The position numbers and the translations under genes were made by a program. The notes beneath the pieces are model-generated. The model was not told where the DNA came from. It saw nothing but the letters and a program-made list of their open reading frames with translations, and did not search any database. Shown here one piece after another: positions 52,540 to 55,298 of a DNA stretch of 55,863 bases. The stretch spans positions 1 to 55,863 of the forward strand of contig JAGYNZ010000016.1 of the NCBI GenBank assembly GCA_018399745.1. The letters are read 5' to 3'. Positions within the stretch are counted from its first letter, which is position 1; every line of letters starts with the position of its first letter. This stretch comes from Deltaproteobacteria bacterium (GTDB taxonomy: Bacteria > Desulfobacterota > Dissulfuribacteria > Dissulfuribacterales > UBA3076).

Positions 52540-52770
52540 ATGCCTGATAAGTGGCTTTCAAAAAGCAAATATCTGAATGGCCTTCAGTGTCCAAAGCTTT
52601 TATGGATTGCGGTCAATGAACCGGAAGGAATGCCAGAGCCGGATGCGGCAACCCAACAGATCTTTGACCAGGGACATAAAGTTGGAATTTTTGCTAAAAA
52701 GCTTTTCCCCCGAGCTGATGAGCGATTTCGCCCCATATGCCTAATGGTGCGTCAGACTGTCGCCCGGTAA
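52540..52770 (+). pseudogene. 5' fragment of a DUF2779 (Cas4-like nuclease) gene
   Basis: The ATG at 52540 has AGGAG seven bases upstream. The 76 residues start L-S-K-S-K-Y-L-N-G-L-Q-C-P-K-L-L-W, the N-terminal Cas4/RecB-like Cys motif typical of DUF2779 proteins, which are normally several hundred residues long. Similarity to the expected family pattern fades after about residue 60 (A-K-K-L-F-P), after which the frame runs into foreign sequence and stops. The 3' part is missing because the gene meets the convergent DUF499 fragment. The 5' end appears intact, so a short product may still be made. Confidence 0.6.
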
Positions 52771-53118
52771 ACCCACGACCCTTACAGGTCCCAATCCGGA
52801 ACCAGGGCCATTATTGCCAAGAATTCGCGATCGTAAAGCAGGATTTTTAGCCAGCAATCCAAGGGCGATCATAAGATGTGTCTTTCCACCTCCCATTGCC
52901 TGGGTAAGGAGAAAGGTGCTTGCCTTATCACTGACACCCTCAAGACGACTGAAGGTTTTCTCAAGGAGGATTTTCATGCCGGAGGTAACAAAATTCTCTT
53001 CAAAAAATTTCGAAGATTCTATCTTATCCTCTAGAAGGTCCGAGAGGTCCAAAACCACATCCCGTCTTTCCTTATTAAAAACACTTTTTCTCGGTGTGCA
53101 TGCTTCCTTTAAAAACAT
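52741..53118 (-). pseudogene. 5' fragment of a DUF499-type ATPase gene
   Basis: The ATG at 53118 has GGAGG six bases upstream. The 125 residues contain a P-loop-like A-M-G-G-G-K-T-H-L-M-I-A-L, the start of DUF499 ATPases, which are normally over 900 residues. The family pattern breaks off at about V-R-V-V-G and the frame ends after ten more codons. DUF499 genes often accompany DUF1156 DNA methylases and helicases in predicted defence loci. The two truncated genes overlap tail-to-tail by 30 bp, as expected of a deletion that removed both 3' ends. Confidence 0.6.
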
Positions 53119-53486
53119 CGCTTACCTCCGGTGCCAGCTTATAGACCTCTTTGACCCTATATCGTCAATTTGAATAGAATTTTACCGAAAATGTTTTGTT
53201 TTTTAATGACACTCAAAACAGCAATCGCCAGCTAAAGTCCTGATGTAAAGGCAAAGTTAGGGTTGCTTTAAGACTTTCAATGCTTTGTTGGTTTCTATTT
53301 TCATATATCTTATTTACTCTGAGAAATAAGCCGTTGTAAAGATTCAAACATGGATTGCCGTTTTTCCGGTAAGAATTCATCCCATGCCTCCATTATGAAA
53401 AGGGGCTTGAGTGCTAATCCTAATATAAAAGACCCCTGTTGACCTCTTTTAAAGACTCTAGAGACTGTCGGCGAATCAAAAACCAG
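53119..53486. other. Intergenic or decayed sequence
   Basis: About 370 bp with no supported gene. A minus-strand frame of 61 codons (53310-53495) lacks a ribosome-binding site and starts within the palindromic repeat, and no family was recognised. AT-rich around 53160-53330; it may contain residue of the deleted defence genes. Confidence 0.4.
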
Positions 53487-53520
53487 GGGAGGCATCCCTA
53501 GGCCGGGAGGTATCCCTAGG
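53487..53520. repeat. Tandem REP-like palindromic units
   Basis: Two 16-bp units, GGGAGGCATCCCTAGG (53487-53502) and GGGAGGTATCCCTAGG (53505-53520), differ at one base and are separated by two bases. Each contains a GGGA/TCCC inverted repeat, and the second runs into CCCTAGGG, a perfect palindrome. They lie about 65 bp before the RAYT remnant. This is the arrangement expected for REP/BIME elements mobilised by RAYT transposases. Further copies would be needed to prove it. Confidence 0.5.
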
Positions 53521-53708: not shown

Positions 53709-55298
53709 TTAATCTATTGGCTGTTCTTTGAACCATTCCAAGATCCTGTTAGCTGGACTTTCCGCAAAATTTTTTACCACTGCTTCTTCTTTTGCTACTA
53801 TTCGAAGAACTTTCGCAATAATTAGATCATGTTCAATGGCTCGAAGGAAGAAGTTTCCTTGTTCGATGTCCGTTGCATCAAACAACAAATCTAATACGGG
53901 ACTGTCCTGATTATGGGCTGTGGCGCGCCAGATGAAACGAGGCATATTTTCCGTCAAGGCATCTTTTCGATATGAGCCATTAAAAGTTTTGCTATTCAAT
54001 AAGTCCTTTTTTACTTTATTAATGGTTGTAAAATAGATTTCCCACTCAAGACGCTGGACCAATGAAGGGAGGAACCCCTTCTCCCTGAGCTGTTCGAAGA
54101 AAAGGTCGAAAAATAGAACGCTATGATGAATTGTTTCGAAAGTTATTCTGAGTTTATGGTAAATAGGAATAAGTACGCATTCTGCTACAGCTCTCGCGCT
54201 TCCAATGGGACCGTTACCATTGTCCCCTCTCCAAGACGTGGATATAGACGATGTCTCTTTCGTCTCTTTCTCTTGATCAAAAACCACTTTTTTGCCATCA
54301 AACTTCATACGTGCAAATGGTCCAACCTGGTCGTCGTGAACATAAATTTTATCTATTTGGGATGCCTTTAACAGAAATCCTATGTTATCCAACGGCTTGG
54401 CTTCGGAGAGTCCTAAACTGTAGCCGGTAATCGCTACGGCGTGTTTGCCCATGAGGTGCGCCTTTTTGCCCGTAACGTCATACAGCCTTATTCCCATAAT
54501 CAAAGGAACTGCGCCTTTCAGATAGGCATACAGAACGCCTTTCAAAATGTAATGGTTCCTGACATGAACAAGTATAGGTTCTAAACCAATATTTCGAATC
54601 ACATGGGCCATCTGGGCAATATTAAGTCCATGACTGGGAATCGCCCTGTCTTCGATTGGGAAATTATCAGTTGCTTTTTTGGTAATTTCCACTGGAGAAG
54701 GAATAGGATGCTGAAACAACATGCCGGTTCCATGAAAGACCGACCATAAGGCACTGGTTGCACAGGCAGCAACTACCTTGTCTTGTTCTTGAAAGGCCAG
54801 GGATTTTGTCCGGAGGGAAAGGCCGAAAAGATTAGCTTTATACGGTCGAAGGATTGGAAAATATCTACGACCACTATCGCTCGGGTATGCTGTTAAACAT
54901 GTACGTCCGATAACTGTCTGGGGTAGTGGTTTAACAACTATGAAGCCAAGGTAGGCTTCCTGAAATTTTGATTCTGAAAAATCATCAGGCCCCGATGATA
55001 GAAGCGCATCCAGATCCTCAGATGAAAGCAAAGATCTAAAAAAGTGGAGACGAGTACATTTACGCCGGTAATGTTTGAAACACTTTACATAATATTCAGC
55101 ATAGTCGTTCAGAAAATCTCTATCTATATAACCGTTTTCAACGATTATTGTTCGAGCGCTGATTCCATCAAAATAATTTTCAAAATAACAACGATGTAGT
55201 TTTTTGTTTACAGCCTTAAGTGAGGCCCCTGACTTCTCAGCAATTATCTTCGAAACCTTATCAATATGGTACTCGAAAACTTCAAATGGCTGGAACAC
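53709..55298 (-). CDS. Papain/C39-like cysteine peptidase-type protein, second gene of a two-gene unit
   Basis: A 529-residue cytoplasmic protein with no signal peptide or membrane helix. The order of motifs fits a papain-fold peptidase: Gln172 then Cys179 in V-V-A-A-C-A-T-S-A-L-W (seven residues apart, as for an oxyanion Gln and nucleophile), His286 in M-G-K-H-A-V-A-I-T-G-Y, and Asp322/Asp323 in Y-V-H-D-D-Q-V-G-P. The N-terminal ~165 residues and the C-terminal ~190 residues are not recognised and could bind a target. GTG start, 11 bp after the stop of the small upstream gene. The nearest recognisable class is C39-like or Peptidase_C1-like; substrate and role are unknown. The toxin or effector role is inference from context. 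Confidence 0.7.
   Translation of the reverse strand: MFQPFEVFEYHIDKVSKIIAEKSGASLKAVNKKLHRCYFENYFDGISARTIIVENGYIDRDFLNDYAEYYVKCFKHYRRKCTRLHFFRSLLSSEDLDALLSSGPDDFSESKFQEAYLGFIVVKPLPQTVIGRTCLTAYPSDSGRRYFPILRPYKANLFGLSLRTKSLAFQEQDKVVAACATSALWSVFHGTGMLFQHPIPSPVEITKKATDNFPIEDRAIPSHGLNIAQMAHVIRNIGLEPILVHVRNHYILKGVLYAYLKGAVPLIMGIRLYDVTGKKAHLMGKHAVAITGYSLGLSEAKPLDNIGFLLKASQIDKIYVHDDQVGPFARMKFDGKKVVFDQEKETKETSSISTSWRGDNGNGPIGSARAVAECVLIPIYHKLRITFETIHHSVLFFDLFFEQLREKGFLPSLVQRLEWEIYFTTINKVKKDLLNSKTFNGSYRKDALTENMPRFIWRATAHNQDSPVLDLLFDATDIEQGNFFLRAIEHDLIIAKVLRIVAKEEAVVKNFAESPANRILEWFKEQPID

Follow-up and report, generated by a model that had tools for sequence, protein, structure and literature searches.

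Two convergent genes, one of the DUF499 family and one of the DUF2779 family, are both cut short at a single junction near the right-hand end of a Deltaproteobacteria contig (C8), and both the truncations and their common junction are genuine features of the assembly. The explanation favoured overall, which we hold to be probable, is that a microhomology-mediated deletion removed a DUF499 operon together with the 3' end of the DUF2779 gene, with a separate frameshift in DUF499. On sequence grounds the DUF499 stump is what remains of a known anti-phage system, DUF499-DUF3780-DUF1156 (Type-2 'BREX-related'), and the removed DNA most likely included an anti-phage operon of this known type. The scar is ordinary gene decay and not a new system. 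The window, i.e. the whole stretch of 55,863 nucleotides that was analysed, is the entire contig and belongs to a draft genome of 2.65 Mb (88 contigs, 97.5% complete, 0.8% contamination). The features are listed below; L041 and L042 are intact DUF499 loci with which the stump was compared.

52540 to 52710, plus strand: 5' stump of a DUF2779 gene, about 57 codons of some 490-500 (tblastn and genome search; homology stops at LFP)
52711 to 52770, plus strand: DUF2779 frame running on by chance through antisense DUF499 to a stop at 52770 (other-strand alignment to the L041 DUF499)
52702 to 52711, no strand assigned: deletion junction with about 8 bases of microhomology, TTTTCCCC on the plus strand (identity to L041 drops below about 52700; DUF2779 homology ends at 52710; similar T/C runs occur in homologues)
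52770 to 52773, minus strand: loss of a single base, which puts the DUF499 stump out of frame and creates its stop at 52741 (single gap against L041 and L042; two frames matched separately)
52702 to 53118, minus strand: 5' stump of a DUF499 ATPase gene, about 139 of 1031 codons (84% amino acid identity over residues 1-119; NF042962; PADLOC DUF499)
53119 to 53329, minus strand: conserved DUF499 upstream leader, common to L041 (185 of 212 columns identical; homology limit at 53329)

The open reading frames run tail to tail (52540-52770, plus strand, 76 aa; 52741-53118, minus strand, 125 aa) and in the ORF list they overlap by 30 bases, 52741-52770. The first-pass annotation had described this overlap, intact starts with strong ribosome-binding sites and truncation of both genes at one common novel junction, and all three descriptions stand. 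Shine-Dalgarno-like AGGAG precedes the ATG at 52540 (start region AGGAGAAATTT-ATG) and GGAGG the ATG at 53118 (start region GGAGGTAAGCG-ATG). No more than about 10 bases separate the points at which the two homologies stop, in TTTTCCCC(C) on the plus strand, and the relatives do not end naturally at these positions; they are full length, at about 490-500 and 1031 aa.

Residues 1-119 of the DUF499 frame are 84% identical to the 1031-aa protein of L041, the best relative, a match far above chance within the candidate set (E=7e-65). The NCBIfam model NF042962 (anti-phage-associated DUF499) matches the 125-aa ORF over profile positions 3-119 of 1025 (E=2.8e-32), and its score of 111.7 bits against a cut-off of 1200 places the stump short of a full-length DUF499. 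The PADLOC DUF499 model also matches (E=7.4e-29), no Pfam match was returned for the 125-aa stump, and a plasmid search gave only distant DUF499 matches. A Walker A-like motif, MGGGKTH, is kept, and everything beyond about residue 139 is gone. At the protein level the match stops at residue 119 (about 52762), while the DNA match continues past this point. The DNA alignment of the region to L041 is 86% identical over 646 columns, with one single-base gap at about 52770-52773; identities are 299/346 at 52773-53118, 53/62 at 52712-52772 and 36/61, i.e. background, at 52640-52700. When the genome is searched with the protein of an intact DUF499 gene, the stump comes up as two matches in two frames. 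Since the alignment crosses a one-base gap and the two frames match separately, the loss of DUF499 homology at about 52762 is a frameshift and not the junction, which lies apart from it. Loss of similarity in both genes had been placed at about 52720-52775; for DUF499 this range reflects the frameshift, and alignment to full-length homologues narrows the true junction to about 52702-52711.

The plus-strand frame matches the N-termini of full-length DUF2779 proteins (about 490-500 aa) over residues 5-61, with 52% identity to a frame of 501 aa in G039 and 47% to the genome's own intact paralogue of 492 aa on contig C1 (E=3e-14 per genome, far above chance). Across several full-length members identity is 36-52% over residues ~5-61, so the shared N-terminal Cas4-like lead-in is present, and the stump consists of this lead-in only, LSKSKYLNGLQCPKLLW...AKKLFP. 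Published work assigns the DUF2779 family (PF11074) to the RNase H-like proteins, within a 3'-5' exonuclease clade that has a PD-(D/E)XK-like DUF83 region, and not to a named defence system (PMC3985635). In the C1 paralogue and the G039 protein PF11074 lies at residues ~298-422, with Cas4-like similarity before it, whereas a Pfam search of the 76-aa ORF gave no match. The earlier assignment to DUF2779 holds for the N-terminal 57 residues, which match full-length members, but the stump lacks the PF11074 domain and the nuclease core. Homology limits were taken from tblastn matches, most of which finish at or just past the conserved LFP (codon 57, base 52710). In two relatives the match seems to run on to about residue 73, which was treated as chance; this stretch aligns well as antisense DUF499. 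No relative of this stump was found in phages or viral contigs.

Intact DUF499 relatives carry a similar purine run at the junction position (CTCGGGGAAAAAG in L041), and the KLFP codons of DUF2779 relatives often read TTTTTCC or TTCCCC. About 8 shared bases at the join are as expected for a microhomology-mediated deletion, which is the simplest and most likely account of the junction. No sequence closely related to the DUF2779 stump at the DNA level was found, so the breakpoint can be fixed only to the interval 52702-52711. No element ends at the junction in a repeat search, and promoter and terminator scans around it gave nothing above shuffled sequence.

By the proposed mechanism, a DUF499-DUF3780-DUF1156 (Type-2 BREX-related) operon would once have read leftward from 53118, and a DUF2779 nuclease gene rightward from 52540 on the operon's far side. 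Deletion through the shared bases would have joined DUF2779 codon ~57 to DUF499 codon ~139, removing both 3' ends and all that lay between, and the separate one-base loss would have given the DUF499 stump its short wrong-frame tail. The deletion would measure at least ~4 kb for the two gene ends, and more than ~7.5 kb if DUF3780 and DUF1156 were present; that the operon was complete beforehand, and in which order the two lesions arose, we infer. Neither stump is predicted to yield an active protein. The DUF499 stump keeps the Walker A-like motif but has lost the remainder of its ATPase core and every C-terminal domain, and the DUF2779 stump lacks the PD-(D/E)XK-like and exonuclease domains.

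The identity of the lost operon is drawn from intact relatives. In L041 the 1031-aa DUF499 gene is followed by DUF3780 and then by a DUF1156 methyltransferase, and among 80 DUF499 loci DUF3780 occurs in 71 and DUF1156 in 64; in each of the 9 loci that lack DUF3780 the contig ends inside DUF499 or shortly past it. Type-2 BREX-related systems comprise a DUF499 ATPase, DUF3780, a DUF1156-type N6-methyltransferase and a helicase (PMC12839542; NCBIfam NF042961-NF042963); the hallmark of Type 2 is DUF3780, and Fn3-like domains are present in roughly half of the DUF499 proteins (PMC12839542). The stump resembles this type in its 84% amino acid and 86% DNA identity to an intact DUF499 that precedes DUF3780 and DUF1156, and the Fn3-associated matches of the full-length L041 protein suit the Type-2 form. 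It differs in keeping only ~139 of 1031 codons, frameshifted, in a genome without DUF3780 or DUF1156: the standalone DUF3780 and the DUF1156 methyltransferase, both seen in intact relatives, occur neither in the window nor elsewhere in the genome, and in the ORF list no frame of the size of the Type-2 helicase (often fused to an HKD nuclease) adjoins the stump. The Hma system, with its HmaC ATPase, is also counted among the DUF499-centred BREX-related systems (PMC12839542). PADLOC HmaC matches the stump weakly (3.4e-10), but the DUF499 model does so far better (7.4e-29), and the relatives have DUF3780, which marks Type 2. The first-pass annotation had proposed a larger lost defence island that perhaps included a methylase, and a methylase operon does lie behind DUF499 in relatives with enough flank. 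A complete island likely once stood between the two genes; this we infer, as no undeleted orthologous site was found. The suggested check of related genomes for such an island found no undeleted or empty orthologous site in congeners, in which the best matches of the flanking histidine kinase and MgtE genes are ~30% identical.

L041 (QMVM01000110.1) is filed as a Methanosarcinales MAG. The peptidase gene adjoining its operon is 96% identical at the amino acid level to that of G004, from the window's genus, and 91% to that of G000, the window's own genome (94% and 87% in DNA), so L041 is very probably a mis-binned bacterial contig of the same genus. The gene beside the L041 operon has its counterpart in the window's genome on contig C13 and not on C8, which puts the L041 operon at another chromosomal site.

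The main rival is an artefact of assembly or binning, in which 52702-52711 would be a false join of two unrelated contigs, with no deletion in any cell. The draft is metagenome-like and in 88 contigs, the contig ends at 55863, 2.7 kb right of the junction, and the junction has been seen in no second genome, the scan for the junction 44-mer having covered viral contigs only, where it was not found. Assemblers normally need a longer overlap than the ~8-10 bases that the join shares, however, and an independent frameshift 60 bases away suits real decay; we regard the artefact as unlikely. Quite unlikely, too, is an illegitimate import of a ~630 bp DUF499 fragment (52702-53329) that cut DUF2779 in the same event, with no resident operon lost. 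Such an import would suit the bounding of the L041-shared sequence on both sides, at ~52702 and 53329, and the start of the L041 operon at another chromosomal site, but the upstream limit has the look of any operon's promoter-proximal boundary, and a simple insertion should leave the remainder of DUF2779 to the right of 53329, whereas this remainder is not in the genome.

The same junction would result from an inversion or translocation that carried both 3' ends elsewhere. When the 97.5%-complete genome was searched with a 2084-aa query made up of DUF499, DUF3780 and DUF1156, only the stump was found, and the genome's sole PF11074 domain is that of the intact C1 paralogue; the lack of any other piece of these genes, or of a second DUF2779 body, argues against such an event, which is already disfavoured and highly improbable. 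Of the earlier proposal that a single deletion or inversion explains everything, the deletion at a shared junction is retained; the inversion is not, nor is the single event, since the DUF499 frameshift is separate.

It is scarcely credible that both short ORFs are functional small proteins ending there naturally, despite their good ribosome-binding sites and a dN/dS of 0.18 between the window and L041 over 115 codons: relatives run to ~490-1031 aa, the tails read a conserved gene in antisense or in the wrong frame, and a low dN/dS can mostly reflect history before the deletion, with intact L041 versus L042 lower still (0.057 over the same codons, 0.046 over the full gene). Under the favoured deletion, the dN/dS values are compatible with a fairly recent loss of constraint, although the branch comparison gives no separation and is not significant (Fisher p=0.35).

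The region to the right of the scar has features of its own. Two 16-base copies of GGGAGGYATCCCTAGG, their starts 18 bases apart, lie at window 53487-53520, in the spacer that separates the DUF499 stump from the next gene. The gene that follows (window 53709-55298) encodes 529 aa and has no known family and no Pfam match. In the congener G007 (L171 1127-1317 and 5418-5572), an HTH/M78 antitoxin-like gene and a TaqI_C specificity fragment lie between pieces of its two ends, and G002 has pieces of the 3' end at two sites. These end pieces suggest an insertion/deletion hot spot. Elsewhere in the genome, on contig C1 (L122:12262-14853), a Mur ligase (Mpl-like) and a tRNA-guanine transglycosylase are joined in one ORF of 863 aa; the two look fused in most congeners checked and form an adjacent gene pair in much of the order.

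Membership of DUF2779 in the same defence system, which the proposed island had implied, is not supported by the tests made. Among the 80 DUF499 flanks examined, not one contains DUF2779, and PF11074, present in 5 of 40 DUF499-bearing genomes, was found beside DUF499 in none. A PF11074 match in the genome of L047, seemingly convergent with DUF499, was rejected: the two lie on different contigs (23,627 bp and 18,792 bp). In the window's own genome as well as in G039 and G094, the neighbours of DUF2779 are transporters and metabolic or housekeeping genes. Because DUF2779 is not seen beside DUF499 elsewhere, the ancestral convergent layout is drawn from this junction alone; DUF2779 may have been a neighbour or accessory of the operon here, which the evidence does not require. 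It is very doubtful that the DUF2779 nuclease was an auxiliary effector of the Type-2 BREX-related system in this lineage; if it was, the lost island would be a composite defence locus not described before.

For annotation, the locus corrects a trap, in that the frameshift had made the DUF499 homology seem to end ~50-60 bases before the real junction. For the genus, it records the loss of an anti-phage system of a recently defined class, of which a close, intact relative in the genus very probably occupies a different chromosomal site, and this loss is in keeping with the rapid turnover known for defence genes.
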